20,976 nucleotides of DNA. Source: Chrysophaeum taylorii (Eukaryota; Sar; Pelagophyceae; Pelagomonadales; Pelagomonadaceae). Positions 4,281 through 20,976 of this stretch are shown here, piece after piece (the first letter of the stretch is position 1; every line of letters begins with the position of its first letter). Below the pieces are notes generated by a model. That model ran no database searches and had not been told where the DNA came from. It saw only the letters and a list, made by a program, of their open reading frames with translations. The position numbers were made by a program, and so were the translations under genes. The stretch is from NCBI GenBank assembly GCA_029834535.1, contig JAQMWT010000690.1:1-20976 (forward strand). The letters run 5' to 3'.

Positions 4281-5288
4281 CTAGGAGCATCTCCTCTGTA
4301 GGGCCGGGTCCTCGGGGTCGATGACCCCCGCCAAGAGAGATGCGTTCGAGTGGCGCGCCGCGTGGTTGAGAGCGCGGTAGGCGTGATTGAAGGCGCGGCG
4401 GATGCGGGGCATGTTGAAGGCGCAGTTCGTGACGTCGAGGCGCGGATCGAGGGGGTTTTCGATCGCGAGGAGCGTCGAGGCCGGGCGGCTCGAAGGGGAC
4501 TTGGCATGCTTGTGGAACTGGACCTTGTCGCAGTAGCGGCCGTTCGACCGGATCGAGAGGGCGGTCCGCGCGAGGTTGAGGTCGCGGCCGTACAACTCGA
4601 AGTACTCGACGAGGAGACATCCCAAATTCGCCGGCGACGGCAGCTGGGTTGCCACGTCGACGCGGTGCCTGTGCTGGAGAAAGGAGACCACGGTCAAAAA
4701 GGTGGCGAAGGACCCCAAGCCTCCGTTGTAGGGTTGATTGAGGACGCGCTGGGCGAGAAAGTACTTGATTACGACCACGAGCGGCCTGAGGCAAGGCATT
4801 GACGCGAGCGCCTCCTTGGCCACCTCCGACATGCGGATGCCCGAGTCGGTGTCGAAGCTGATATCGATCGATACTCCATCGATCACGCCCTTGACGATCG
4901 GGACCGTCGCGTTCTCGATGGCTTCGACCCTGCTCGCGAAACCCTCTAGCCTCGACCTCAACGTCTGAAGTTTGTCGCCGGACGCCCCGAACACGACGAG
5001 ATCGATGTCGCTGCAGAACAAGGCGAGCCCCGTCACCTCGGACCCAAACACCCGCACCTCGCACGCGGGCCACGTCTCCCTGCACACGCGGCGCACCACA
5101 CTCACGGCTTCGCGCCGCGCCACCCGTTCCGCGTCGTTCACGCTCGCCAACGATGCAAACGACACAATCTCGTTGTGCAGCCGCACCATCGGATTCGACT
5201 CCCCAGACTCGTGCGCCGCCCAAGGCACCTCTTGTTTTCGTTCTTCTCTTTTTTCGGACCCTCCCAGCGGGATGAACTCGAGCGTCAT
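4281..5288 (-). CDS. TRF4/PAPD5-type non-canonical poly(A) polymerase
   Basis: Predicted nucleotidyltransferase that adds short A (or mixed) tails to nuclear RNAs for exosome processing, as in the TRAMP complex; that role is known for the family and inferred here. The 335 residues show the Pol-beta-type signature GSEVTGLALFCSDIDLVVFG (residues 82-101), with Asp94 and Asp96. The third acidic residue is Asp142 in VSIDISF. The central domain has LRPLVVVIKYFLAQRVLN (168-184) and GGLGSFATFL. The PAP-associated domain has NLGCLLVEYFELYG (221-234) and AIENPLDPRLDV (275-286). All catalytic elements appear present in one uninterrupted frame without introns. It is shorter than animal PAPD5/7, lacking long N- and C-terminal extensions. 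The start at 5288 lies 85 bp from an inverted helicase fragment, so the 5' control region is short. A cytoplasmic Cid1/GLD2-like relative is less likely given the GGLGS and ENP motifs. Confidence 0.85.
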   Translation of the reverse strand: MTLEFIPLGGSEKREERKQEVPWAAHESGESNPMVRLHNEIVSFASLASVNDAERVARREAVSVVRRVCRETWPACEVRVFGSEVTGLALFCSDIDLVVFGASGDKLQTLRSRLEGFASRVEAIENATVPIVKGVIDGVSIDISFDTDSGIRMSEVAKEALASMPCLRPLVVVIKYFLAQRVLNQPYNGGLGSFATFLTVVSFLQHRHRVDVATQLPSPANLGCLLVEYFELYGRDLNLARTALSIRSNGRYCDKVQFHKHAKSPSSRPASTLLAIENPLDPRLDVTNCAFNMPRIRRAFNHAYRALNHAARHSNASLLAGVIDPEDPALQRRCS

Positions 5289-5374
5289 CGCGCAACCAAT
5301 TTATTACTTACTAACCCTGCGCACTGCTAATAATCGAAAGGGGAAATCGCAATTAGGGCAAGGGCGGATTAGTT
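5289..5374 (-). promoter_or_regulatory. Short presumed 5' region of the poly(A) polymerase gene
   Basis: Only 86 bp lie between the start codon and the inverted helicase fragment. On the coding strand it reads ...AAATTGGTTGCGC just before ATG, an inverted CCAAT-like string, with AT-rich sequence upstream. No TATA box is evident. This is inference from position; no promoter element is proven. Confidence 0.3.
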
Positions 5375-5633
5375 AGTCAGCATGCCGTTGGTTGTCAGGG
5401 AGTTCAAAACTCGACTCTTGAGAGCGAGGCGTCGTCTTCCGACCCAACCTAGTCAAAGAACTCCGACGCCTCGTCTCCGGGAAAAAAAGGCCGCGGTCAT
5501 GTGCGCGTTGTCAGCATCGACAACATCGTTTCGACGGGGCGTGAGAATGGCGCGCTGAAAGAGCCGCCGCGGGTCGTGGAAATGGTCTGCGAGGTCGCCG
5601 TAGACGACTTGGAGGATCAATGCCTGGCTCGCG
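5375..5633 (-). repeat. Inverted repeat copy B (helicase fragment)
   Basis: Reverse-complement copy of 2581-2844, reading YGDLADHFHDPRRLFQRAIL on the minus strand. Compared with copy A it lacks a short insertion near the EFF/TRR region and keeps a longer recognisable reading of the helicase. It ends abruptly in AGTTAGTC on the gene side and near the GA microsatellite on the other. Confidence 0.9.
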
Positions 5634-5643
5634 GGCGTACCAG

Positions 5644-5646
<3 letters not shown>

Positions 5647-5692
<46 letters not shown>
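5647..5692. repeat. (GA)23 microsatellite
   Basis: A perfect GA dinucleotide run lies between the helicase fragment and copia element 1. Open frames read Glu-Arg or Ser-Leu repeats through it on either strand. These are artefacts that fuse the helicase fragment to the copia frame. Confidence 0.95.
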
Positions 5693-5695
<3 letters not shown>

Positions 5696-6053
5696 GAGAA
5701 CTTCTTTAACAAGTTCATCACCGGAGTTCAAGTTGCTCGGCATCATCATCAAGATTTCCCTGGCGCTCTTGCGTTGCAATTGCTTCACACCAAAATTCCA
5801 GATTCCATCTTGTCTAAGGATCTCATTGCGCTTGATCCCAAACTGCGCACATATGATGGTTTCGTTGATCGCCCCAACAGCAAGGTGTTTGATTATCTCC
5901 AGACCAAGCCCTCGCTTGTCAACGTTGCTATAAGTCAGGGCCCCCGTCATCGCGACCGTGGTTCTCATCATCGCTCTAATGACTCCAACTCTCGTATCTG
6001 TGACTTTTGTGGTGACCGCAACCATACAGCTGCTCAATGCTTCCATCGCCTCC

Positions 6054-6216
6054 GTCGTCTTACTCCCTTGCGCTTCAATCCGCGCTACCGCCCCCGCCCG
6101 TCTTTCCGTTCCAGGCCTCAGCCTCCATTTTTTTTTTTTGTCGTCTTACTCCCTTGCGCTTCAATCCGCGCTACCGCCCCCGCCCGTCTTTCCGTTCCAG
6201 GCCTCAGCCTCCATTT
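6054..6216. repeat. 86-bp tandem duplication with T12 junction
   Basis: The block from GTCGTCTTACTCCC to CCTCCATTT occurs at 6054-6130 and 6140-6216, separated by a run that makes twelve T (6128-6139). The added 86 bp is not a multiple of three and moves the second zinc knuckle out of the gag frame. Confidence 0.9.
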
Positions 6217-8274
6217 CACCGTGGCTCTCCTAATCCCAAACGCCCACACCCTACTGACCTTTGTCACTTTTATGGCATTCCTGGTCATTACAAGAAAGAT
6301 TGTCGCAAGCGCCAGCGCTACTTACTCTCCCAAGCCCCACCCCGCCCTCTCCCTCATCCCCAATACCAACCTCGCCCAAATCCACCATTATACCACAACT
6401 ACCTCTCCGCCCCCATACTCTTGCCCCCCTCTCAACCCTCTCCGCCGATTCTTGCGTTGCCACCCTCCACCACACCCTCTGTCCCGCCTTCCACCGCCAT
6501 GTCTTCCCCTCCCGACCCACCTTTCACTGCCCCCCACCTACCCGTCTTTCACCTTCCACCTCTTTTCCATCTCGCCAACCATTCACCAAGCCTTGTCTTC
6601 TACCAACTCACTCAGCGCTCTGCTCACCGCCCGTGAGCGCGACTATCTTCACTCCAACAACCTTCGCCTTGTTGTCTACGATACGGGTGCCAACGTCAAT
6701 CTCTTCAATTCCCCTTCTGGATTTACGGACCTTGACAACACTCAACAGCACTCAATCAACTCTGCTATTGGCACTGGCTCTGTTTCTGGCTCTGGCACTG
6801 CTCACTTAACGTTCCCTTCTATTGGTCCTCTTGACAATCGTGGTCTTCCATCCCCAGCGCCCGCTCTTTCCGCCCCTCATGGCATCCATATCGCACTCCC
6901 ACATACTCTCATCTCCCCTGGCCTTGGTGACAAGCGGATTCTTTCTGACCATGCCCTTCAGCAGGCTGGTTACGATTGTCATACGATCCAGGATGTTGGC
7001 CCTACTCATCCTCAACGAATCTTACGTCACCGCCAGACGCATCATGTCATTCCTCTGCTCCGTCGCTGTGGTCTCCTATTGATCGTCTGTTGGATCGGCA
7101 ATACAACCGCTGCACCCTACGCGGACTTTGTTTCCCCGTTTGTGGCATTTTCTTCTTGCCCTCGCCTACACGACCCTTGCGCCTTTCCCGTTGTGTCTCA
7201 ACGCACCCAACTTACCTTCGACCTTTGGCATGCTCGTCTTGGTCATTATAGTCCCTCTTACATCCGACGTTTGTCTTCTCTCGCTGTCGGCGCACCTTTC
7301 TTCCCAAGTTCGGCGTCTCTTTCTTTTTGTCCTGCATGTGCTTTGGGTAAAATGCATGCTGTTCACGTTGGCCATCGCAACCGCGTCCCACGTGATCAAG
7401 CTACCAGCTCTCTTCCTGAAAACGAAGTCTTGCCGCGCCCACGTGCCGTCGCGCCCTACCTCATCATCCACGCCGATCTGATGTTCACCGGCGTTCCTAC
7501 TTTCATTTACCAAGATCGTGCCATTCTTACTTTTGTCGATGATCACACGCGCCGCCGCACGCGTTACTTCGCTCCTCGCCACGACTCGCTCACAAACGCT
7601 CGTCAACTCGAACTTTTCTTGTGTACCGTGGTTCGACCCTTTGGCTATCGCATTGCCCTCATCTACACAGATCGTGACAAGTCTCTCATGGGCCAATTTG
7701 AAACCTTCTGTCTGGGCAACAACATCGCCATCAAACGTTCCCCCGCTGCTCAATCCAAACATTCCCAAGCGCACGCTTTTTCAGGTGTTGTCGAACGCTC
7801 CCATCGTGCAACTGCTGATATTACCCGAACTCTTTTGGTGCATGCGCACCGTCCACCCGATTTTTGGCGTTGGGCCATGGAAACGGCTGACTTCATCTCC
7901 GAGCGGATGCCAAACGCCTCCAACCCTGGTTACCTGACTCCATATGAAATGCTCCACGAAACCTTGCCTCGCGTCGATTTTCTTCGTGTTTGGGTCTGTC
8001 CCGCGGCTATTCTCACTGGCGACAAATGGCCTACCAAAGCCATTACTGGCGTCTTTATTGGCTACCCCAGTGCTGGTCCCGGTTATCGCATCCTTCTTCA
8101 GCGGGCTACAGGTCCCGTTATTCTCACTTCTATCGACGTTACCTTCGATGAGAGCTTTGCTTTGCGTAAGTCCCTGTCCTCCCACCCCCTTCCTCCGCCC
8201 CTTGTGGATTCTCGTTTCCCCGATTTGCTCTACTATGATCCTCGTTTGTCTTCCGCTGTTGCTCCCTTGTCTCC

Positions 8275-8308
8275 TGTTTTTGATGCTCAGGTGTTTTTGA
8301 TGCTCAGG
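8275..8308. repeat. 17-bp tandem duplication breaking the copia frame
   Basis: TGTTTTTGATGCTCAGG occurs twice in succession. The frame entered by skipping one unit stays open for about 85 codons with a polar, basic linker composition, so the original polyprotein probably continued there. Confidence 0.8.
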
Positions 8309-8459
8309 AGCCGGCCTTATCGGGACTGGCCACCCCAGAAACAATACCAGAACCATCAGCGAACAATGCGAAAAGTGCACCATCACGCCGAGCCAAACGG
8401 AGCCGACCGCGCAAAGTCGACAAAAGCGCACATTATTCAGAAACAACTGACCAAACAAC

Positions 8460-9077
8460 TTGCGACACCACGAAACCAACGATTCTGGCGTTTCTCCACA
8501 ACGCACTGTCGATTCTGTGTCATCCTGTCATTCCCTGTATGTTAATTATTCTAGCTTTCGTTTGTTAGTTCATTATGTCTTCCTTCCCCTTTGTCTCGCC
8601 CATACCCTTGTTGATCCCCAACGTGTCGAAGCCCATCGTGTCCTCTACTCTGCTTCCGAAGAGACCTCTCAATATTCCTACATTGATGACGGCGCCATCA
8701 CTTCCACTCATTTACGTGACGCTTTAGCACATACAAATCCTGAACGACCAGGCTGGCTACAAGCCATTGCCAAAGAATATTATTCCCTCGGTCAGCTCGG
8801 TTGCTGGGATGTTGTTCGCGTTCCTTCTACTTTTTCTGGCAACATCTGTACTTTAAGGTGGGTCCTCCGCAAGAAGTATGAATCTGGCCGCTTCAAATCT
8901 GCAGAGAAATCTGCTGCCTCTTACCCTTATCCGTCCGTCGAGAACGTGATCTCTTCCTTACCCTTCTTCTTCCTTTCTACACAGCCAATTAGTCCTCTGA
9001 TTTGTGCTCAAGCTCATCATCATGGTCTAGCGCGTCCCGGGGTATGTAGCTCTATACGCTTAACCTTTCTCGTGTAG
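8460..9077 (+). pseudogene. Copia element 1 reverse transcriptase, N-terminal fragment
   Basis: From about 8610 the frame reads the opening of the copia RT domain: an HLRDAL...NPERPGWLQAIAKEY block, then LGCWDVVRVP and LRWVLRKKYESGRFKSAEKS. These correspond to the fingers region (A-x-x-x-E-x-x-x-L, W-x-x-V, C-x-W-V-x-K). The palm motifs with the catalytic aspartates are absent; homology stops near 8960 and the frame drifts to a stop at 9077. The fragment is in a different frame from the integrase and cannot be active. The stretch 8460-8600 in this frame is probably not the original coding frame. Confidence 0.75.
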
Positions 9078-9109: not shown

Positions 9110-9466
9110 ACTAACTAACTAACTTCAGACCTCTCCCGAGCATGGGAGCCAGGCCGGACCGACAGGAGCCAGCCCGGAATCACGGGCCTGTAGACGAGGA
9201 GCGCCGAAAGGTCGGTCGGCGGTGAGTGACCATCAAGCTTGTCGCCATGCGACGAGGAGACCGCGATGTGACTGACAACCAACTCGTCGATAACCTTCCG
9301 TATTCGCCCCCCGGCCATACCCCGTCCCACTGCGAACGTTCCGGCTGCCAACCGGCCCGCCCGGGGGGCGAATAGGTGCCAACCTACGCCGGGAGGGCGT
9401 ATGCCCTCGCAAGGCTCAGGATTCATGAGGCACCGTCCTCCATCGCAACCGCAGTCGGCGATCAGG
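9110..9466 (-). mobile_element. SINE-like element, copy 1
   Basis: A 357-bp non-autonomous retroelement in minus orientation. Its 5' end is CCTGATCGCCG (right side) and its 3' end is GGGAGAGGTCTGAAGTTAGTTAGTTAG (split here as GGGAGAGGTCTGAAG plus GTTA units, left side). Near-identical copies lie at 17622-17972 and 18693-19047. The last ~70 bp match the 3' end of the LINE at 16313-17622. Clean 12-bp target-site duplications flank it. No obvious tRNA box A/box B could be picked out, so it could alternatively be an internally deleted LINE. A frame of ~115 codons (ending SHARERSEVS) stays open in all three copies. Confidence 0.85.
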
Positions 9467-9478
9467 GTTCTGAGGATA
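9467..9478. repeat. Right target-site duplication of SINE copy 1
   Basis: GTTCTGAGGATA follows the CCTGATCG end of the element and is an exact match to 9098-9109. Confidence 0.9.
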
Positions 9479-9597: not shown

Positions 9598-10104
9598 GCG
9601 GGTCCCTGAGAAACCATGTGTTAAAACGTGCACGTAACCTAGGGGTATTGGGCCGTTACCGCGCCGGCTCAGCCTCGACACGTAAACACACTTGTAAATA
9701 CAACGCCATTACCATTGGGCTGTATATAGCATATTTTGCACACGTGATCGTGTAACCTTGTGTGCACCTGTTCATAGTATCGTGTTGTCATGTTAATGTT
9801 GATGTGTGTGTAAGTTGGCTAACCTGTACTCTTGTACACATGTTATGGAATATTTTGGGTACGTCCACTCGTACATTCCATGGCAATGCACTTACCAAGC
9901 TCCTTGAGAGCACCAAAATAACCAGCTGCCATTAGTGACTACGCTTAGCGGCACTACTCTGGACTCACAGCTTGCACAGTTGTCAAATAGACATTTTCCC
10001 ATCGATAACGCATGAGTGTACATAGACACCGATAGACAGACCCCTTAGAATGTCTAGACAGTGTCAACTGCGTGACTGAACCCACAGGTTCCCCGTCAAC
10101 TGCT
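9598..10104 (+). other. Untranslated leader of copia element 2
   Basis: About 500 bp between the primer site and the gag start, rich in stops. A 71-codon frame at 9540-9755 overlaps the primer site and is not credible. The stretch contains several TGTAC/GTGTAC strings but no structure that could be named. Confidence 0.5.
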
Positions 10105-11819
10105 ATGGCAGAACACGCAGCACGAGCCGCACCCAAAGCGATCACAGGTGCGGACATATTGAAGCTCGAAGCTCGTGTAGTTGAGTTTCTCAACGAAGGA
10201 AATCGATTTCAGCTTCAGACCCGCAAGGTATCCTTGCAAATTAAGCACATCCAACAATTATTACGGTCCAGTCATGCCAATGTTTTCCTCGATTACGACT
10301 CGTACGAAGCATACACTCGGTCATGCAAGGACTACGAGATCCTCCGGAATCAAATTCTCGATCGCGTTTTCCTGGAATGGAAGACCAATAGAGCTGCTGA
10401 TCTCCATTTAGCTGTAGATGAATTGCCCCCTGAGTATCAGGAATGGCACTTCACCAATGAAGCTTTCCCAAACTTACCTGACGCAGAAGTAGCTCAGTTA
10501 GCTACTGTCTGTTACGACAATGAAGTCAAGGCATTACGCCCTGAAATCAATCCCCGTTTCTTAGAAGAGGAACGAACATTAAATCGCGCGCACCCGAGAG
10601 CATTAGCTTTTGACACCCGTGTTCGTGCCCCTGTTACCATGTTTTCGTTAACTGCTGCTGACTGGCACACTTATCAGAACACGTATGCTACATTCTTGCA
10701 TACTTACTTCAATCTTGAAAGTGTTGGAAAACCAGCACCTGCGGCCTGGCCCGCCATCAATGAGGTGTATAACAAAAGTTATTTTCCCAACAAGGCTCGA
10801 CACAACAGCAGTTTAACTCTGTTGTTTATAATCCTAACTGGTATGTCCATGTCTTTATTGAAGCTGTCCTAGCATTTAGGCAAATCTCTTACCAACTTAA
10901 CCAGGAAGAGACTGACCTTCAATTCGACTTTGGTGCACTTTGTAGGAAAATTTATGAAGATATACATCGGCATTATGCCGATAATACCAGCAACAATCGT
11001 TACGATCGTGGTTGGGTAGATTGGTATTATATGTATGAAACTCGATCTTCATCTCGGCCTGTGCCAGACGCTGAACGATTGTGTCACCCTGCCAACCCCA
11101 GCTATATCTTAGAATACGCATTAGACTTATATAATGCGGCATCAAATGGGTCGAGCAAGAGACGCTTAGAACGCCCTGTTTCTTGGCAACCTTATGTTGA
11201 AGGACTGACACCACAACCAAAGCCAAAATTACTACTGACAAACACGCTGGATCTATCAGACAAAAGTCTGACTCAAACTGCAAACGCACTCGCGTCCATT
11301 ACCTCTTCTCAACCTGGAACATCCTCCACGTTTAACGCTAGACGCTTGCGTAACTCTAACGATGCATGCCAGCCTTTCTCTCGCAGCGACCTACCGTATT
11401 GTCGTTCTGGTGATTCTTATGTCACCACGAAAACTGCTGGACAGTCCCATGACCGTCCAATTTACCCTCGTACTTTCGACAGGTCCTCTCGATCCAATAT
11501 GAAACTATTGGACCGAACGAAGCATACCATAAATACACTGCAAGAGCAGTGTAGCGAACTTACGAAGCATGTGGCAGATAATGATATCACGGCTCAGCTA
11601 CAACAGAACATCACCAAGTTATTTGAGACTCTTCCAGAGAGCTACACTATTATGTGTACGACACTGGAACATTTCACGCCTTTCACACCTATCTCTGCAA
11701 GAGGGTTTTCTCTCCGTAATACGGCTTTCCCTCTTTCCTTCCTTACCCTTCCGCAATTATATATATATTTTCATGACTATGAAGAACCCAGTCTGAAGCT
11801 CTTTTCCAACATGGAGTAG
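10105..11819 (+). pseudogene. Copia element 2 gag (no zinc knuckle), one frameshift
   Basis: Structural protein of the second copia family. The Met at 10105 (MAEHAARAAPKAITGAD) opens a frame that runs to 10872, but homology to element 3 switches frame near 10803 and then continues to the stop at 11819. Shared blocks with the element 3 gag include FNLESVGKPAP (FNLESQERPAL in element 3), NPNWYVHVFIEAVLAF (NVNWYALVFVEQLLAF), RPVSWQPYVEG (KPASWIPYIPG), FNARRLRN (FNARKLRN) and RSNMKLLDR (RSNMSLMDR). No Cys-His knuckle is present. The last ~50 residues lose similarity, and no protease or pol follows before the next LTR, so the element is truncated at its 3' end. Confidence 0.75.
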
Positions 11820-12436: not shown

Positions 12437-14845
12437 ATGACCCGCACTCAAGAAACCCTTCATTCTTATGTGTCGAATCTGTCTATCAATCCTCTAACCT
12501 ACCTTGATCAGTCACGATACTTCTCCTAAAAATACCAATATCCGGAATGCTCCGGAATACAGTCAAATCCTTGATAACGAAGTAGATGCCATCTTTTCAA
12601 GATGGATATCTGAGAAAATTGACGAATTACATCTGCATTAATGAAGATGCCTTGCCCGAACATTTAAAGACTTGGCACGTCAGCTCTTCCCATCAACTAT
12701 CAGTCGATGCTCGTAACAATCTCGAACGACTTTACTACCAAGAGTCATACAATCTCGTTCGTCCTGAAGATCAAACACTGCGAAACTTATGCTGGTTTAT
12801 TGTACACATTCTCTAATTTGGAATCACAAGAACGCCCCGCACTCGCTATGTGGCCTCAATTAAAGAAAATATATGCACTTACTGCACATCCTAATAAACT
12901 ATGTGCAGTAATGCTTTTAGCTTACCATTACTATGAGACAGTGTCTTGTACAGATGTAACTGAGCTTAAATCTCAGTTTAATCGAATGTCTTTAAATGTT
13001 AATTGGTATGCCCTTGTATTTGTCGAACAACTCCTTGCTTTCCAATCTCAGGCAAAGCAATTAAATAACGATGAAGCATCAATCCAATTTAATGATTCCA
13101 TCATCACTCTCGAAGCTCACGAGGAGATCTATCGTCTATATGCTAATCCCTCGGATCACGAGCGATATTCTCAATCTTTATTGGAATGGTGTAAACTCTA
13201 CGATACACGCTCTGGGAACAACTCGACTCACGATCCTGAAGTATTAAAGCTAGTTGATCCTAACGACGTTCGTCCGTTATTGGAGTTCCTGTTAAAGATA
13301 TATAATGAAACAAAGTTTTCCTCTAACCGACGCTTTGATAAACCCGCTTCATGGATCCCTTACATCCCTGGTACTACCGCTACCAAGCCACCTAAGGTAT
13401 TATTGATGGATACTATTCATCAATCCCACAACTCTCTAAACAATGCTTTCTCGTTGTTAGCTACTGTGGCTGGACAGTCTGGCTTCAACGCTCGTAAGCT
13501 TCGTAATGCAAAAGATAAAGCATCGACAATTTCACCTCGTGACACGTCGTACTATCGTCCACCTTCAAATTATAACGTCAAAGGTACCAGCTTCGATCGT
13601 CCTGTCTACTCACACTCCTCTAACCGTAATGCACGCTCTAATATGTCTCTTATGGACCGGGCTACTTATCAAGTTGATCGTCTTCGCCACCTGTTTGGTA
13701 AATTACAGGAAGCGAATCCCAACCCCTCTACCGACTCTAAAATGGTACAGGAGGAAATGAAAAGCTTACTGAGTACCCTCTGGACAACCGCTTCTCAAGC
13801 TTCGACACAGTCCTTAGATCCTGATGAAGCCACCCAAGTTCATCTCTACTTATCTCGAGTTGATACTATGTCCAATACCATCATGAACCTCGTAGAAGCC
13901 GATAAGGAATCTCATGTTTCAGAAGAAAAGTATCAAGCTGAAACATCTGCTCCTGAAGCGTCCCCCAGTGATGCGGAGCAGAGGGGGACTGCTGGTACAG
14001 AGAAAATGTTCCACACTTTTCTGTCCATTAAAGATGATGAAATCGATAACATCCCTCAGCCGCTATTGCAGCACATAAACGCTAAAGCTCAGAATGCTAT
14101 CGTTCGTCGTCAAGCTCGGGAAACTTCCTCGCACTCTGAGCTCCCCAATAATCTACCCAACGAAGATAATGAAGATGGCACCGACCCCCCTGTATTGCTA
14201 CCAAAATTAAACACTGGTTTTACACTTGTCGTTGTGCCTTCTGAACAAACGCAAAGTTTCATGACACAGTACGTGTTTGGTCAAAGCTCAACACATGCCT
14301 GTTATGCAACAATGCTTAAACTGTACAACGAGTACAATTTGCCGCTAATGACTACGCCAGGATATGCTGACACATGTGCTTCTCAACATGTAATTAATTT
14401 TAAACGCTACGCTGATCCTATCCACATCGTAAAGCTACACGAGTCCTTATCACCTGCTATCCAGACTGCTACGGATACGCAGAGTATCACGCATGCTATG
14501 ATTATAAGGACTGTCATTCCCGCTCTCCCAAAGCATCCAAATGTGGGATATGTAAAGCTAGACGTTGCGCTTTTCCTACCCAAGCAAAACGACCATAACG
14601 ATCCCGATCTGCACATCATCAGTATGACTCAATGGGGAGAAGATAAACTTGGTATACATCTTTGTGGAGTTGAATTTAAAGGACAATCATCTATCCAGAG
14701 TAAAATTGATGATAATGTCAAGAGTACTTTGTTTAGACTCAATAACCTGTTGCCTACTCTACCAATTTATTCGCTACAACAAGCAAAAGCACGTAAAATG
14801 GAACTTCGCTCACTACAGTTCAGACTATGTGCTTTTAATGAATAA
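12437..14845 (+). pseudogene. Copia element 3 gag and protease
   Basis: The gag N-terminus (12437-12800) is broken: fragments in three frames match element 2, for example EVDAIFSRWISEK against QILDRVFLEWKTN, and ~40 residues are missing. From ~12795 one frame runs 2 kb to the TAA at 14843. It holds the conserved gag core (NVNWYALVFVEQLLAF, RPEDQT upstream, FNARKLRN, RSNMSLMDR) and an acidic linker with PSDAEQRG (~13962). Next comes a retropepsin-like segment: YADTCASQHV (Asp at 14369), then VALFLP and LHIISMTQWGEDKLGI, the copia pattern DTGAS...LxxP...NLLSVSQL. The usual DTG is DTC, so activity is doubtful. No Cys-His knuckle occurs. The stop at 14843 and a TGA at 14972 separate protease from the downstream methyltransferase, which starts in the same frame. 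Confidence 0.75.
13962..13989 (+). other. AGAGGGGGA purine tract in a GATGCGGAGCAG context
   Basis: Encodes PSDAEQRGT at the gag-protease linker. The same context recurs at 20213-20240 in the integrase-RT linker. It resembles a polypurine tract, which primes plus-strand synthesis in LTR elements, but its coding position leaves a protein-level explanation open. Confidence 0.4.
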
Positions 14846-16312
14846 CGCGAAATGCTTAAACTATATTCCACCCTCGTGGAACGCGTAATTTACGTCCCAT
14901 GGCTTAAAACCATCCTGGAGTCAATGCATTCGCAGCTGCCTTACATACGCAAGCATTCCCCACCTCCCGTATGACGCAAGGTTACCACACGTTTGCTTCA
15001 CACAGTAACTACGTCTCCTAGCTCACGAACACCTACTGTAACTCTACTTTGCTCTGGGATGTCCACTCCTGCATTCTTGGCTTGCGCTTCTAATGACTTG
15101 CAAATCAACATCAACGTTAAAGTTCTTGTTGAGAGCGACGACAATCTCACGAACATGCTACGAAGACGTTTTGGTAATTCCATCGAAGTTTTCCCATCCC
15201 TAACAAGTTTCTCACATATCTCCATCGAGCATCGGACGTCGAACGTGCAAGATATTACACCGATATAGTGGAATTGACATCACCATGCACAAATCGCAAC
15301 ATAATCAATGGGAGATCCATTTCCACCTTCGAGCGTGATATGGACGATTCCTTGTTTCCAAGTGCTCTAAGTGTACTTGAGCTTTTAAAGCCGCTTGTTC
15401 TTTTCATGGAAATGACACCACCACACTCCGCATCGTATGAAGACCATATACGAGTTGCTAATCTCATCTTCTCAACGATGCTTTATACGGTGGATATATG
15501 TGACCGATTTCCATGCTATCTGTGTGGAGATTATCAAGCCAGAGAAAGATGGATCCTCGTTACGCGCAAATATAACACCGGCCATCTTGATCTGCTTTCC
15601 TGGCATAACAAACGAGTTACTTCCTTTCTGGACATTGCAGACCACGCTAATTCCATCCGTCGCAAGTTAATAGTCGACGAACCTTGGACGCAGGTCTTTC
15701 CCGACATACCATTCGTGTCCGTCCACACCTAAAACCTACAACATCTTCAGTCGCACAGGATCTGTTCGTCTAACTGTGACTGAACTTGAAACCTTAACCA
15801 TGTTGTTTCTTCGTCTGCACTCTAACAAAACAGTCGAACATCCAAGTCAAGATGAAATGGAGGGCATTTCTAACTTTCGCCTGGGATTCTTGACTAATCC
15901 AAGAAAACCACTTGCTTGTATGAAATCTCCTATTGAACTCAAAGCTTTTGTGCTCCTCTATAATATTATAGGACGTTTATTCCCTAAATCTATCACATTA
16001 CCTGTGTCCTTTCGTATTACAACTATCGAATCTAACCAACCATCTCACAGGTTATTCTTAAATAAAGCCTCTACTTCCTCCATCATTTACATCACCGGTG
16101 GAAGACACACAGGCGGAGACATAACAGTTTCTAACTCCTCTTCTAAATACCAGGCACATATAATGCTTTTGGCGAAACCTATACCTTCCTAACACATGAT
16201 GCCGGAATCGACAAGACCGCTTCTCTCGAACCTGTTACTGGTTTTCTTTGGCTTTGCCAAGCATACCATAATAATAATGAAAATCAAGACACGCGTCGTC
16301 TAGTACAAACTA
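14846..16312 (+). pseudogene. C5-cytosine DNA methyltransferase domain inside copia element 3
   Basis: This family transfers a methyl group from S-adenosylmethionine to C5 of cytosine. Motifs in order: I, VTLLCSGMSTPAFLACA (~15037-15090), like VxSLFxGxG; II, KVLVESDDN (acidic E at 15131); IV, DIVELTSPCTNRNIINGR, with the Pro-Cys nucleophile at 15283-15288; VI, LVLFMEMTPP, Glu at 15409, where ENV is usual; VIII, CGDYQARERWILV, with QxRxR at 15535-15549. A possible IX-region stretch (GSVRLTVTELETL) follows near 15750. Three frames are used, with shifts near 15180-15265, 15700-15732 and 16150. Motif I lies in the gag-protease frame, so the domain was probably part of the polyprotein. Downstream, the final frame reads to RRLVQT and resumes after the LINE insertion. 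Motifs I, IV and VIII together make the family call fairly firm; target specificity is unknown. Confidence 0.75.
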
Positions 16313-16320
16313 ACTAACTA

Positions 16321-17532
16321 ACTAATTTCGTTAAGGCGTTCGACCGCGTCCCGCGAGAGCTTCTCTGGGAGGTGCTCCTGAAGTTCGGCGTCCCGCCGAA
16401 GCTCGTCGCAGTCATCAAGGGCCTCCACCGAATCCAGGTCCACTTCTCGGTCAGCGGTGTCGTCGCCTCGGTTGACTCGATCATCGGCGTCAAGCAGGGC
16501 GACGTCCTGGGCCCCGTCCTGTTCGTGCTTTTCATGGCGGCACTGACGACGTCGTTTCGACGACGCCATGGCCGCACCCCATGTGTCTACCGTACGCGGA
16601 AAGACTTTCAGATGACGAACCGGAGTTGGTCCGCTCGCGGCGACGAGTTTCCCTTCGATGAATCGGCGTACGCCGACGACGTTGCCTTTCTCTTCTGGGA
16701 CCGCCACATCGCCGCCAGCGAGACACCGCGCCTCATCGAACACTGCGACGCCTGGGGCATGGAGGTGCATTGCGGCAACCGACACACGAAAGCGGCGTCC
16801 AAAACGGAGATGCTGTTCGTCGCTCGCCCGGCACACCTGTACGGCGACCCAAAGTCGTTCGACGACACGAACCTCTCGGACATCGAGCTCGGGCGCGGCC
16901 GCTTCATACCGGTCGTCGACCAGTTTAAGTACCTCGGCTCGGTCCTCTCGCGCGACTGCCGCGACGACTCAGACGTCGACGCGCGGATCAAGAAGGCGTC
17001 TCAGGCCTTCGGTGCCTTGCGGGACTGCATCTTCGCCTCGAAGTCCGTCTCTGCTCGCGCCAAGCGCCTCGTCTATGTCTCGCTCGTCCTGGCCATCCTC
17101 CTTCACGGTGCGGAATCGTGGTGCCTCACCGAGGTCCTGTTCCGCCGGCTGCGGTGTTTCCACGCGCAGTGCGCCCGCGTCATGTGTCGTGTGACCCGGA
17201 AACACACCTGGTCCCACCACATCTCAACGGAGATCCTGCGGCGGCGCCTCGGCCTCGAGTCCATCGACGTCTACGTCACGCGCCGCCAGCTCCGCTGGGC
17301 CGGTCACGTCGCCCGCATGCCCTTCTCCCGACTCCGTCGCAAGATGCTCTCGTCTTGGGTCCGCTCCAAGCGCCCACCGGGGTTTCCGCAGATGACGTAC
17401 GGGAGGTCGCTCGCCAAGGCACTCCGGAAATGCGACATCCCCTTCAACTCGTGGCACGACCTCGCACAAGACCGCGCGCAGTGGCGGTCCGCCATCCATG
17501 CACTTTCCCAAGCTTCTACCCCAACTGTGTGA
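16321..17532 (+). pseudogene. LINE reverse transcriptase, truncated at motif A
   Basis: The frame begins at NFVKAFDRVPRELLWEVLL, the palm motif A region, cut just after where the first catalytic Asp should be. It stays open to the stop at 17530. Motif B reads GVKQGDVLGPVLFVLFMAAL, motif C is AYADDVAFLFWD (YADD at 16669-16680), and the thumb region has FKYLGSVLSRD. The C-terminal domain carries RRQLRWAGHVARMPFSRLRR and a final W-x-x-LAQDRAQWRSAI block, common in RTE-like and related LINE clades. No stops or frameshifts occur over 400 codons, so insertion is fairly recent, yet the missing N-terminus (endonuclease, fingers) makes it inactive. GC content is much higher than in the copia sequence around it. 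Confidence 0.9.
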
Positions 17533-17543
17533 ATTTTTGCTCT

Positions 17544-17622
17544 GTGATCCTGGACCGGCTACTACCGGCCCAGCCTGGCTCCCATGCCCGGGAGAGGTCC
17601 GAAGTTAGTTAGTTAGTTAGTT
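17544..17622 (+). other. LINE 3' tail: two hairpins and (GTTA)n
   Basis: TGGACCGG / CCGGCCCA can form a stem with one mismatch, followed by CTCCC-ATGCCC-GGGAG. The matching SINE region has GGACTGGC-TCCT-GCCGGTCC (8 bp with one G-T pair) and CTCCC-ATGCTC-GGGAG. Both end GAAGTTAGTTAG. Base changes in the first stem largely keep pairing, as expected for a structure recognised by the RT. Confidence 0.6.
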
Positions 17623-17972
17623 AACTAACTTCAGACGTCCCCCGAGCATGGGAGCCAGGCCGGACCGACAGGAGCCAGTCCGGAATCACGGGCCTGTAGA
17701 CGAGGAGCGCCGAAAGGTCGGTCGGCGGAGAGTGACCATCAAGCTTGTCGCCATGCGACGAGGAGACCGCGATGTGACTGACATCCAACTCGTCGATAAC
17801 CTTCCGTCTTCGCCCCCCGGCCATACCCCGTCCCACTGCGAACGTTCCGGCTGCCAACCGGCCCGCCCGGGAGGTGAATAGGTGCCAACCTACGCCGGGA
17901 GGGCGGATGCCCTCGCAAGGCTCTGGATTCACGAGGCACCGTCCTCCATCGCAACCGCAGTCGGCGATCAGG
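17622..17972 (-). mobile_element. SINE-like element, copy 2
   Basis: Minus-strand copy of the 9110-9466 element, with its tail touching the LINE tail at a GTTAGTTAACTAAC palindrome. Its 5' end (CCTGATCG) faces the methyltransferase fragment. Differences from copy 1 are few and scattered. Together with copy 3 it forms a ~350-bp inverted repeat. Confidence 0.9.
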
Positions 17973-18107
17973 GTAAGGGTAAGGTCCTTCTTTAGTAGGA
18001 GATGATATATCTGCGGATAAGGTATTAGAGAGGAAGACATGAGCTACTGAACCGAGATGAAAAGATGGAAGTTCGTGGTTAGAAGCAGGATTATCGCAAC
18101 ATGAGAG
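17973..18107. other. Flank between SINE copy 2 and the methyltransferase fragment
   Basis: It begins GTAAGGGTAAGG, a mirror of the CCCTTACCC that precedes copy 3. No gene, RNA or repeat is recognised in the rest. Confidence 0.4.
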
Positions 18108-18689
18108 TTATTTGTTGGAGATGTAGAACATTGTAATGGAACTCTGGTGTAATATTAAGGATGTATCTGTTGGGAATATATTTGTGAAGAAGGTTGACCT
18201 ATAGTTTTTGGTTAGAGAAGCATGATCAGGGTCAAAAGATGATGATAGCGTTAATTTACGCAAGTCATAGACAAGCTGACAAAAATGTTTATAAATTATA
18301 TGATATGTTCCAGCCGGAATAGCATTAGCGATTATGTCACAGCATAGGTCCGGGGACAAAGACAAAAGAAACTTGATTTGGTACGCTGTGAAGTTATTGG
18401 CGCGTGCCAATTCACGAGTTGAGTAATGTCGAATGCGATCGAGTCGTGGATCGTACACGAGCATATTAGCAAATCCACGAATGGTAGGAGTGGGAGTGTA
18501 TATAGAATGAACTTTGGCACCCATCTTCCTATCGCTTGATGTAATAAAGCCCAGGTATCTGGTTTGGGACAGATGCATGTCACTTAAAGCAAACACTTTA
18601 TCGATAAATTCGAGACGATGTTCCTGAGGGTAGAAGACAAAAGAATCGTGGAGTGCAGGAGAAGTATAGGGAACCAGTGTTTGTACCCT
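18108..18689 (-). pseudogene. C5-cytosine DNA methyltransferase C-terminal fragment
   Basis: An open frame of ~193 codons that starts inside SINE copy 3. The SINE-encoded residues are not part of it. It matches the end of C5-methyltransferases: a target-recognition-like stretch (HRLEFIDKVFALSD), then KVHSIYTPTPTIRGFAN, like the VYSxxGPAPTI block before motif IX. Next are RIRHYSTRELARANNF (RxLTxRExARLxGF) and IIANAIPAGTYHIIYKHF (motif X, IGNAVPxxLAxxI), where Ala replaces the first Gly. The catalytic half (motifs I-VIII) is absent, so it has no activity. Element 3's own methyltransferase has a weakly similar region near 15690-15790, suggesting a diverged member of the same family. It lies between inverted SINE copies. 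Confidence 0.7.
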
Positions 18690-18692
18690 TAC

Positions 18693-19047
18693 CCTGATCG
18701 CCGGCTGCGGTTGCGATGGAGGACGGTGCCTCATGAATCCTGAGCCTTGCGAGGGCATCCGCCCTCCCGGCGTAGGTTGGCACCTATTCGCCTCCCGGGC
18801 GGGCCGGTTGGCAGCCGGAACGTTCGCAGTGGGACGGGGTATGGCCGGGGGGCGAAGACGGAAGGTTATCGACGAGTTGGATGTCAGTCACATCGCGGTC
18901 TCCTCGTCGCATGGCGACAAGCTTGATGGTCACTCTCCGCCGACCGACCTTTCGGCGCTCCTCGTCTACAGGCCCGTGATTCCGGACTGGCTCCTGCCGG
19001 TCCGGCCTGGCTCCCATGCTCGGGAGAGGTCTGAAGTTAGTTAGTTA
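18693..19047 (+). mobile_element. SINE-like element, copy 3
   Basis: Plus-strand copy, CCTGATCGCCGG to (GTTA)3, followed by element 3 coding sequence (CTAAAGAAAGAC). Tail outward and 5' end inward, mirroring copy 2. The ~115-codon frame is open throughout (ATG at 18733 is internal). Confidence 0.9.
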
Positions 19048-19049
19048 CT

Positions 19050-20948
19050 AAAGAAAGACAAATTCCTCTCATAACACCAAGACAGCTCCATGAGAAGCAT
19101 GCGCCCTTCGATAAGAAAGTTCATGCCAGGGGCACCCTCGCATTTCGAGATGCGCAACAACGAGCTACCAATTTTCACAACATCCACCATTCTAGTGATT
19201 CTCAAGCTACAAAAGCTGTTCAGGTTATTGCCAGTCCTGGACATCACCCATCTGACGTACCCTACCGTAAGTTCTGTGTGGATTGTACGATTCATAAAAA
19301 ACGCTTCCCTCATCCACACCACCTTACCAAGCAACCATCATTCGCAAAAATTTTTCAACCTGGTGAAGCCTGGGCATGTGACGGTGGTTACGTATCTGTT
19401 TTCTCGGAATGGGGATCCTTTCGACATATCATTGTTTTTAAGTGTCTCATTTCTAAATTTCTGTTAGTGTACTTTTGTCGTAGCACTAATTCTAGCGAAT
19501 TTTGTAACGCCCTTGAGTTTGTCCGCAATTTTTGCTCTACTTATGTTCATGTACAACTAAAACAAATCTATTGTGATTCCTTTAAACCCCATTTATCTCA
19601 GCATGTTACAACCCCCTTCCGTGTGGAACATGGTATTAATATGTCCGCGTTCCCCCCTTACTTACATGTCTTTAATCATGAAGTATAAGCCGCTGTTGGT
19701 CACATAGCCACTGCCGCGTCTACACGACTCCGGCATATGCTTAATGTATCCTATAAAGGTCACCCCCTAACAGATCCGGCACCACACTACCCGTGGGCTG
19801 TTATACATGCCATCCAATCGTATAATCTCCTCCCTAACGTTTCCCTCGAACGTATTTGTAATAAAGTCCTATGCCCCCAACAAGTTTGGTTAGACCAATG
19901 TAATGTTTCCCAACAGGACTACCTCAAACCTTTTGGTTCTGTTTGTTATCTGCATTTGGAACCTAACGAATTTCATAAATATGAGCCTCGATGTCGTCCT
20001 TACATCTACTTATGTGGTGCTAATATCATAAACCCTTTAATAACACCCCATGTTAATCATTTAGCCGATGTTGTCCTTAATCCTGAAAACGGCCAAGTCC
20101 GTGTTTCCTCTAAACTGACCTTTCCTCATCTTATTTCCAAATTTCCTCCTGATTATGAACAGCATCCACCTCCCGCACCTTCACCCGACATTCCCTTCTC
20201 TGTTCACAGCACCCCCAATGATGCGGCGCAGAGGGGGTATGCTATGCCTACCGACACTGACCACGAGAGGGGGACTCCTTCTTCTCCTCTCCATGCTCCC
20301 TCTCCCGTTCCCGCATGTGCTCCAGCTGCTTCTGCACCCGCTACTTCCGCCACCACACCTACATCTGAAGTGTCCTCAAACACTTTGCCACTTTTACCAT
20401 CTTATCGGTCTCTCTATTCCCAGGATGTCCTACGTCTCACCCGTGGTCCTCATCACCCTCAGCCTCGTCGCAAAACCAACCTCAAGGATGTTGTTACTCG
20501 TATTGCCTCACCTACTGTTGCCGCTTATAAACAAGCCGGTGGTACGCTTGCCGACTTCAAGTATGACCTCTCCAAGCAGTACATAACTTTCTGCGACCCC
20601 ACCCTCCACTCCCTTCATCTGGCTCATGGCATCCACTGGACGGCTATACCTCCAGAGGGGGAATTTACACCATCTCTTCATCACCATGTTCACCAAGCGC
20701 TTTCACAGTCTTCTTCCGTTATGTTTCATAGGAGCCATAGCCATCCATCGCCTGATGCTCCTCACGTTCATTTCTGCGACGACGTCAACCTTGCAGACTT
20801 TCACCTTCCTCAAGCTCTCGTTCATCTAATTTCTGAACATGCTCACGCCTTTCAAGTTCCTCCCGCTCAATATGTTTTTGCTTTGTTCACACCCCACTCC
20901 ATTTTGGATCATAATGACGCTTCTTATGGTGCCTCCGAGCCTCAATGA
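19050..20948 (+). pseudogene. Copia element 3 integrase and linker to RT
   Basis: One frame from 19050 to 20948 with a single stop (TAA, 19686). The zinc domain has two His (NFHNIHH, ~19165) and FCVDCTIHKK (~19270). In the core, the first Asp is in AWACDGGYV (19380) and the second in IYCDSF (19575). The expected Glu falls at or next to the stop, in the string FNHEV-stop. Then HYPWAVIHAIQSYNLLPN, FGSVCYLHLEPNEFHK and PRCRPYIYLCG follow the usual W...FGC...R...F/IxGY course after the core. The long tail has Pro/Ser-rich sequence and a TRGPHHPQPRRKTNLKDV block before the stop, where a 31-bp-offset duplication occurs. RT would follow beyond the window. The stop makes it inactive unless suppressed. 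Confidence 0.8.
20213..20274 (+). other. Two AGAGGGGG purine tracts
   Basis: Tracts at 20230-20237 and 20266-20274; the first sits in CCAATGATGCGGCGCAG, like 13962. They encode PNDAAQRGY and HERGT. A fourth tract (AGAGGGGGAA) lies at 20654-20662. They may be internal plus-strand primers, or repeated peptide sites. Confidence 0.4.
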
Positions 20949-20976
20949 CGCTTCTGGTGATTCTTATGGTGCCTCT
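20913..20976. repeat. Imperfect tandem duplication at window end
   Basis: AATGACGCTTCT ... TATGGTGCCTC occurs at 20913 and again from 20944, offset 31 bp, the second with an extra GGTGATTCT. The offset puts TGA (20946) into the integrase frame. Confidence 0.75.

Follow-up and report, generated by a model that had tools for sequence, protein, structure and literature searches.

A predicted C5-cytosine methyltransferase between protease and integrase in Copia retrotransposons of Chrysophaeum taylorii

The window, by which we mean the whole stretch of 20,976 nucleotides analysed here, almost certainly contains, to judge from its sequence, a dead and broken copy of a Copia-superfamily LTR retrotransposon in which a C5-cytosine methyltransferase (MTase) lies between the protease and the integrase. 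The ordered Pro-Cys, the Glu of motif VI, the Arg of motif VIII and the Asn-Pro of motif X mark the domain as a predicted C5-cytosine MTase, and the dN/dS values of related copies indicate that this enzyme, carried inside a mobile retroelement, is kept under strong constraint.

Anatomy of the window copy

The features of the element are compiled in Table 1. A preliminary description had read MTase motifs I, II, IV, VI and VIII in this order, and they are indeed present between 15035 and 15552, spanning two frames: motifs I and II are read in frame 2 and motifs IV to VIII in frame 1, which implies a frame break in between. The protease motif shares frame 2 with motifs I and II, as had been proposed for the starting frame. 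A LINE fragment interrupts the element, as do two inverted repeats that have the inverted C-terminal part of the MTase between them; these insertions, the inverted motifs IX and X, and the TGA ahead of the MTase had escaped the preliminary description. The contig ends at position 20976, before the reverse transcriptase (RT), which is therefore not in the window. Scans of the window against Rfam and for tRNAs were both empty. A further Copia element, at 5453-8545, has no MTase. The gag had been described as free of a zinc knuckle, and none was detected in the single gag frame examined from each family.

Table 1. Features of the element in the window, with position, strand and basis or remark
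Feature	Position	Strand	Basis or remark
Family-A gag-protease frame, 725 codons	12668..14845	+	translation, motif reading
Protease motif DTCAS	14366-14383	+	frame 2
In-frame TGA in the protease/MTase interval	14972..14974	+	present in 16/16 distinct family-A places read
MTase N-terminal part with motifs I and II, frame 2	14975..15268	+	motif reading
MTase motif I	15035-15076	+	frame 2
MTase motif II	15116-15136	+	frame 2
MTase core with motifs IV, VI and VIII, frame 1	15178..15732	+	P0001 and P0002 matches
MTase motif IV, Pro-Cys	15268-15288	+	frame 1
MTase motif VI	15400-15423	+	frame 1
MTase motif VIII, QARERW	15532-15552	+	frame 1
MTase middle part (presumed target-recognition region), back in frame 2	15722..16310	+	
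LINE-type insert with reverse transcriptase, outside the Copia element proper	16318..17532	+	RVT_1, 2.4e-8
360-bp repeat, inverted pair, left arm	17622..17981	+	
MTase C-terminal part, inverted relative to the element	17988..18686	-	matches L043:2482-3180 at 92%
MTase motif IX	18390-18431	-	in the inverted C-terminal part
MTase motif X	18315-18338	-	in the inverted C-terminal part
360-bp repeat, inverted pair, right arm, 98% complementary	18684..19043	-	
Integrase, one TAA break at 19686-19688	19046..20945	+	rve 0.0035, SH3-like 5.2e-5, both below the Pfam cut-offs

Family members, relatives and the identity of the methyltransferase

The window copy is a member of a large family (family A): a search of the 70.8-Mb genome with its protease/MTase junction gave 204 matching places. 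Among the 40 of 332 candidates that were scored against the 2-kb stretch, the window itself included, 39 further places match at 94-98% DNA identity. A family-A MTase match lies on the same strand as, and within 6 kb upstream of, at least 61 of the 124 integrase matches listed, and in 48 of these 61 listed places the distance is 687-1119 nt; the other 63 listed matches are not absences of the MTase, both the integrase and the MTase counts being lower bounds. Related copies therefore do not lack the segment between protease and integrase, the case in which the preliminary description would have treated it as an unrelated insertion. An unrelated gene inserted by chance into one Copia copy, a reading to which the strong rearrangement of the window copy lends itself, is ruled out by these places and has practically no chance of being correct, the same gene order being common to the two groups of relatives described next.

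The first of these, family B, has the protease motif, the MTase and a Copia RT in one open frame, and the second, the marine environmental contig L049, is a single gag-protease-MTase-integrase-RT frame of 2557 codons. Two family-B members (L019 and L020) match both PF00145 and RVT_2 in a single frame, with rve below cut-off in L019 and not listed for L020; L049 matches RVT_2 at 4.5e-45 and rve at 21.3 bits (cut-off 32.6), and was the only relative among 15 pattern matches in genome contigs. These three open frames bear out the proposed Copia element with an MTase between protease and integrase, and they answer the earlier question of whether the domains share a frame in intact copies: protease, MTase and RT do so in family B, and integrase as well in L049. 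In family A, a Copia RT (RVT_2, 2.1e-25) is found at L038:332-1798, about 0.5 kb past the integrase and on the same strand of contig C587, and presumably belongs to the same element. RVT_2 downstream of the integrase, by which the Copia superfamily is recognized, is thus read in the sequences of families A and B and of L049. Terminal repeats together with a target-site duplication are seen in family B only: the ends match in all three copies tested, 9.2-9.6 kb apart (194 bp at 96%, 208 bp at 89% and 89 bp at 95.5%), and one copy has a candidate duplication of 5-6 bp, judged by eye. For family A, comparison of a single pair of flanks (L035/L042) revealed no terminal repeats. The idea of a separate MTase-only reading frame in family A was dropped because L033 ends by a frame change and 65 of 104 family-A rows are without a stop; some family-A frames reach at least 1184 codons.

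The profile search proposed for the MTase gave a divided answer. Neither the window pieces nor the family-A frames matched PF00145 directly in Pfam, but a sister copy has a homologous frame of 403 aa, and this frame matches two MMETSP proteins (1.3e-76 and 1.4e-17) that themselves match PF00145 at 4.4e-4, below cut-off, and 1.2e-10, which argues that the motifs in the window are not due to chance. The homology of family A to PF00145 was reached in this way via P0001 and P0002. The curated cut-off of 22 bits is passed by family B (L019, L020, L026), P0002-P0008, P0010 and P0011, and narrowly missed by P0001 (20.2) and P0009 (20.3); L049 scores 18.5 bits as a whole frame and 22.9 bits as a piece. 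Among solved structures the best profile match is M.HhaI (1.6e-7, spanning motifs IV-VIII). P0005 is matched by PADLOC models for type II MTases, and the NCBIfam model dcm covers its residues 69-530 at 35.5 bits, far under the cut-off of 100.65.

Three of the relatives are MMETSP transcripts from marine microbial eukaryotes, and a third MTase set is also abundant in the genome. P0001 is a stand-alone frame of 392 aa, which counts against the explanation favoured below. Family B had no match among long proteins in the first protein search, and IMG/VR searched with P0005 and the A7 alignment returned no relatives, so that, at the sensitivity of these searches, there is no support for a viral carrier.

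The Pro-Cys, the motif-VI Glu, the last motif-VIII Arg and the motif-X Asn and Pro are identical across family A, family B, P0005 and L049 (one member each), and the first three are also present in all 11 rows of a wider MTase alignment. The inverted C-terminal part of the window, misplaced by MAFFT, was excluded from alignments A7 and A9. Motif VI is EMT in family A and most relatives and ENV in family B. Motif VIII is a full QxRxR in family A, whereas in family B the canonical Gln and the first Arg have been lost and the last Arg alone is retained; its motif I is divergent. The divergent motif I and the lost first Arg would fit a domain kept for structure, as a Pol spacer or nucleic-acid binder, after the loss of catalysis. 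We regard this as very unlikely, given that the four members compared share the catalytic Cys and Glu and the motif-X residues without exception and that, in both families, dN/dS is lower in the catalytic half than in the other two MTase parts. The median dN/dS of the MTase, calculated from copies picked for the absence of stops, is 0.09 in family A (7/10 loci) and 0.14 in family B (13/20 loci, 12 places), close to the 0.08-0.10 of the integrase.

A phylogenetic tree separates the retrotransposon MTases from DNMT1, DNMT2, DNMT3A and DNMT5 by a 98/98 branch, and the same split appears in three variants (98/97, 88/86 and 100/100). The tree is small and long-branched, holds no published retrotransposon DNMT and includes human DNMT3A, on a very long branch, as its single DNMT3; such joins may be false. 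On this tree, with DNMT3 represented by DNMT3A alone, the retrotransposon MTases fall outside DNMT3. Their distance from DNMT3A, whose class is the one found in SymbioDIRS and KnitGypsy, supports the separate acquisition that had been suggested, without proving it.

The TGA codon ahead of the methyltransferase in family A

The TGA occupies the same place in every distinct family-A place read, including five with 76-89% protein identity, and this position ahead of motif I suggests stop-codon readthrough. All 100 zero-mismatch junction places listed carry it exactly, as would also be expected from a recent spread from one founder; the heptamer TGACGCA is, however, unchanged in copies with just 76-77% protein likeness in which the neighbouring bases vary. 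No Met codon is present between the TGA and motif I in the translations of seven diverse copies, and family B and L049 have no stop at the corresponding position.

Readthrough of the UGA in family A is, on this pattern, likely. The alternative that it is not read through, being either a selenocysteine codon or a defect handed down by a single founder, is unlikely, although four of the five diverged copies have a frame broken somewhere upstream: L045 becomes open once a frame change is passed, L044 contains another stop, and L046 and L047 change frame shortly before the TGA. L048 alone has an uninterrupted frame over all of the stretch read, from the protease to the TGA, and it is open again past it. 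By eye, no Cys was seen at this position in the relatives without a stop. A stem in the RNA immediately downstream of the TGA pairs in 97.5% of cells, exceeding slid controls, but is no better than shuffles (260 of 500) and is not claimed.

Possible role and comparison with known systems

As an overall explanation we favour, with some reserve, an MTase-bearing Pol, UGA readthrough in family A and a packaged enzyme that methylates the element's cDNA. Ribosomes would read through the conserved UGA, so that the MTase would head a less abundant MTase-integrase-RT product and could be packaged together with RT and integrase. It might then methylate cytosines of the double-stranded cDNA before or at integration, in which case new copies would reach the genome already methylated and would either resemble host DNA or be shielded from cytosine-targeting or restriction-like attack. 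Activity of the enzyme on DNA is reasonably probable; that the element's own cDNA is the main target is possible, at somewhat less than even chances.

Another substrate could be RNA, either the genomic RNA of the element or the tRNA that serves as its primer, modified in the manner of DNMT2. RNA methylation is suspected for the SymbioLINE MTases in the cited part of de Mendoza et al. 2018 (PMC5890265), and family A and most relatives have EMT, not ENV, as motif VI. The MTases lie apart from DNMT2 on the tree, the sequence does not tell DNA from RNA substrates, and we consider this option improbable.

Equally improbable is an action on host chromatin, at or near insertions or genome-wide, in which de novo marks would be propagated by a host DNMT5. 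The host has a DNMT2-like locus (L001, 3.9e-39) and a DNMT5-like locus (L002), which matches chain 7r76_A at 3.3e-94; this chain is listed as 'DNA repair protein Rad8', and we take it to be the Cryptococcus DNMT5. DNMT5 is a maintenance enzyme. The high copy number of MTase-bearing elements would also suit such an action, as would the result that a human DNMT3A fragment had no match in the genome, in a search for DNMT3A that ran without a positive control. Strong CpG deamination in family-A copies was looked for and not seen: CpG transitions are only slightly more frequent than those at other C/G sites (0.0153 vs 0.0125 per site), a difference giving no sign of strong CpG methylation. By contrast, the CpG observed/expected ratio of element pieces (0.78-1.05) lies below that of two host genes (1.26-1.46), which have a different GC content from the pieces. 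Less probable again is a broader scenario, in which a Copia lineage with its own old MTase class, also present in other marine microeukaryote or environmental sequences, would supply de novo methylation to a host relying on DNMT5 as its sole DNA-maintenance enzyme, the parasite writing marks that the host copies. Should DNMT3 truly be missing from the host, the elements would allow the origin of de novo methylation in a DNMT5 organism to be tested. The 70.8-Mb genome with its many copies is a far easier study system than dinoflagellate genomes, and the comparison of family A, with its conserved UGA, to family B and L049, with no stop, makes control of MTase dose testable.

MTase-carrying LINE, DIRS and Gypsy retrotransposons have already been published; in the portions of that paper drawn on here, the SymbioDIRS and KnitGypsy enzymes are of the DNMT3 class, a SymbioDIRS-type enzyme methylates DNA in yeast, Dnmt3 elements have many copies in Symbiodinium and fewer in K. 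nitens, and the Symbiodinium Copia elements are without any DNMT (PMC5890265). A 2025 sentence citing it places DNMT3 members in 'LTR Copia and DIRS' elements (PMC12344493); the 2018 paper terms the streptophyte element Gypsy (PMC5890265). That sentence names Copia as a carrier, as here, but speaks of DNMT3.

M.HhaI and other type II C5-MTases have the same motif order as the present enzymes, which differ in being fused in a retrotransposon Pol and, in family A, family B and P0005, in their larger middle region. LINEs are not known to encode an integrase. SymbioLINE-Dnmt, as far as the cited part describes it (PMC5890265), likewise represents an orphan MTase lineage in a retrotransposon, but it is a LINE with the MTase in a frame upstream of the RT frame. 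SymbioDIRS-Dnmt3 and KnitGypsy-Dnmt3, in the same portions, share with the present elements a C5-MTase within the Pol polyprotein, the lack of introns, purifying selection and, in Symbiodinium, many copies; they are DIRS and Gypsy elements, whereas here the carrier is Copia, with the MTase between protease and integrase and apart from human DNMT3A. Copia, with an MTase group that falls outside DNMT3 on our tree, thus joins LINE, DIRS and Gypsy as an MTase carrier, the 2025 sentence having already named it.

Open frames of the methyltransferase-bearing Copia elements

The C5-cytosine methyltransferase (MTase) between protease and integrase is part of the Copia element, and open frames are present in its relatives. 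In one group of these, family B, both the C5-MTase profile PF00145 and the Copia-type reverse transcriptase (RT) profile RVT_2 fall within a single frame at locus L019 (at least 1767 codons up to the locus edge, and 1952 when read in the genome) and at locus L020 (1868 codons). The L019 frame also contains the integrase profile rve, under its cut-off, and, reading by eye, the protease motif LIDGGAS at residue 80. Matching ends, separated by 9.2-9.6 kb, were present in each of the three copies of family B that were tested, with lengths of 194 bp (96%), 208 bp (89%) and, in the third, 89 bp (95.5%), and a candidate 5-6 bp duplication, seen by eye, flanks the ends of one copy. In family A, to which the window copy belongs, the frame of the sister locus L043 runs from MTase to integrase (1184 codons), and an RVT_2 frame lies downstream of the copy on contig C587, on the same strand. 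The marine environmental contig L049 (NHBR02000125.1, 7673 bp) consists of a single 2557-codon open frame with RVT_2, a sub-cut-off rve and a borderline PF00145, in which a protease motif and an RNase H of Copia type can also be recognised by eye; it is filed in a marine bacterial MAG bin, Muricauda sp. TMED12, of which it is probably a eukaryotic contaminant. The second Copia element of the window gave no match to PF00145, and the MTase therefore belongs here to certain Copia lineages and not to every one.

The motifs of the preliminary description (I, II, IV, VI and VIII) were found again in the window sequence, coordinates unchanged; the frame that they were said to share holds for I and II, which continue the gag-protease frame, and not for IV, VI and VIII, which lie in another. 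The window copy is dead: it has changes of frame and stop codons, carries nested insertions and is partly inverted. In its closest sister (contig C520, 98% DNA match), one 360-bp repeat stands where MTase and integrase meet, and the MTase's C-terminal part has its normal orientation. From this we infer that the window copy may have gained a further repeat, after which recombination between the pair may have turned the middle piece around.

Features of the window surrounding and composing the family-A copy
Feature	Position	Details
Cid1/TUTase-type poly(A) polymerase frame, probably a host gene	4281-5297, minus	MTPAP-like 7.2e-15; PAP_assoc 8.7e-9
Second, ordinary Copia element	5453-8545	gag-pre-integrase and SH3 domains; rve below cut-off; zinc-knuckle-like CX2CX4HX4C (by eye)
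Third copy of 360-bp repeat	9112-9468	
Gag-like frame pair, a relative of the family-A element upstream of the window copy	10036-11819	34% identity to family-A gag over 280 residues
Gag-protease frame	12668-14845	725 codons
In-frame TGA	14972-14974	between gag-protease frame and MTase motifs I, II
LINE-type RT fragment	16318-17532	RVT_1 2.4e-8; interrupts element after 16310
72 bp directly 3' of LINE-type fragment	17544-17615	ends TTAGTTAGTTA; 88% identity to end of 360-bp repeats (18976-19047), as expected of a SINE mobilised by this LINE
Two 360-bp inverted repeats	within 17622-19043	98% complementary; interrupt element
Inverted C-terminal part of MTase	17988-18686	699 bp, between repeats; matches L043 in reverse, 92%
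Integrase	from 19046	contig ends at 20976, ahead of RT

Judged from motifs and relatives, the domain is a predicted C5-MTase. Family A did not directly match PF00145 or the NCBIfam model dcm, so that the membership of family A rests on intermediates and conserved motifs. The 403-aa frame of the sister locus L033 is 41% identical to P0001 (1.3e-76) and 31% to P0002 (1.4e-17), two MMETSP proteins that match PF00145 at 4.4e-4, under the cut-off, and at 1.2e-10, respectively. A profile of both families with P0001 and P0002 retrieves eight more metagenome or transcript relatives (P0003-P0010) and one ordinary DNMT, P0011; in profile comparisons, M.HhaI matched at 1.6e-7 and P0011 at 96.4% probability, each over the N-terminal half only. 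P0005 (617 aa) shows that a single enzyme extends as far as the integrase. Its motifs IX and X can be aligned to those of both families and of L049, dcm spans residues 69-530 (8.3e-9, score far beneath the model's cut-off), and the C-terminal part (354-539) is matched by one of the type II MTase models of PADLOC.

Copy numbers and coding constraint

Family A has at least 104 protein-match rows in the genome, 65 of the 104 listed being free of internal stops, and merging them with 40 DNA matches gives at least 115 places. Family B has at least 125 rows, and a third MTase set, known here from MTase matches alone and nearest to P0002 and L049 (33-38%), has at least 119, some with open frames above 1100 codons; all these counts are lower bounds, and a row is not equivalent to a copy. 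Among stop-free MTase stretches, a restriction that biases dN/dS downward, the median was 0.09 in family A (range 0.03-0.26; 21 pairs; 7 of 10 loci passed) and 0.14 in family B (0.09-0.67; 78 pairs; 13 of 20 loci passed, one place counted twice). Constraint on the catalytic half of the MTase is similar to that on the integrase, and the remaining MTase parts are somewhat looser.

dN/dS by element part, with number of copies in brackets
Part	Family A	Family B
Gag part		0.06 (8)
Protease		0.12 (7)
Protease-linker	0.19 (9)	
MTase I-VIII	0.07 (8)	0.11 (13)
MTase middle	0.09 (8)	0.19 (11)
MTase IX-X	0.15 (8)	0.18 (11)
Integrase	0.10 (3)	0.08 (10)

Stop codon and frame overlap ahead of the methyltransferase

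The family-A TGA occurs at the identical place in 16 of the 16 distinct places read, five of them only 76-89% identical in protein, and sits 23 codons ahead of TLLC in the nine measured; TGACGCA is constant in eight aligned rows, in which the bases around it vary. In the five diverged copies (L044-L048), the MTase side is open across the stretch read, while the protease side is open throughout in L048 only, is open after a frame change in L045, has an additional stop in L044, and changes frame shortly upstream of the TGA in L046 and L047. The junction has at least 204 genome matches at up to three mismatches with the stop left free, compared with none for a reversed control pattern at the same tolerance and at least 203 when TGA is required; the last pair of counts on its own proves little, and the 100 matches listed, all without mismatch, are identical by eye in both lists. 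Translations of seven diverse copies lack any Met from the TGA to motif I, and initiation at a new in-frame AUG would therefore leave motif I out. Ribosomes would reach MTase-Pol by reading through the TGA.

The overlap of gag and pol frames with pol in the -1 frame is common to many retroelements. By arithmetic from the coordinates of five family-B loci, it is present at four (L019, L023, L027 and L028), where it suggests programmed frameshifting; at L026 the overlap has the other relation. L049 runs through without any stop. These arrangements look like different means of setting the amount of MTase-Pol.

Origin and published carriers

A 26-row tree was built from the retroelement MTases, human DNMT1, DNMT2 and DNMT3A, chain 7r76_A (which we take to be DNMT5), two host loci and P0011. 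A 98/98 branch (98/97, 88/86 and 100/100 in three variants) set the retroelement MTases apart; the tool warned of long branches meeting there. P0001 joined family A at 99/98 (98/96, 98/96 and 95/91). The sole claim that we draw from these trees is that nothing links the retroelement MTases to DNMT3. Host locus L001 matches DNMT2 (3.9e-39), and the first 300 aa of host locus L002, the part tested, match 7r76_A (3.3e-94); a human DNMT3A fragment gave no match in the genome, in a search run without a positive control. A light-harvesting protein near L001 has its best match among chlorophyll a/c-type complexes, so the host is probably an alga of the red lineage.

Among the titles and opening lines of abstracts listed by full-text searches of open-access papers, none described a Copia element that carries a C5-MTase in the protease-integrase interval. 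Passages of De Mendoza 2018 (PMC5890265) describe LINE, DIRS and Gypsy carriers of MTases, a portion of PMC6338049 names Gypsy and DIRS as carriers of cytosine methylases, and an excerpt of PMC12344493, citing PMC5890265, places DNMT3 members in "LTR Copia and DIRS" elements.
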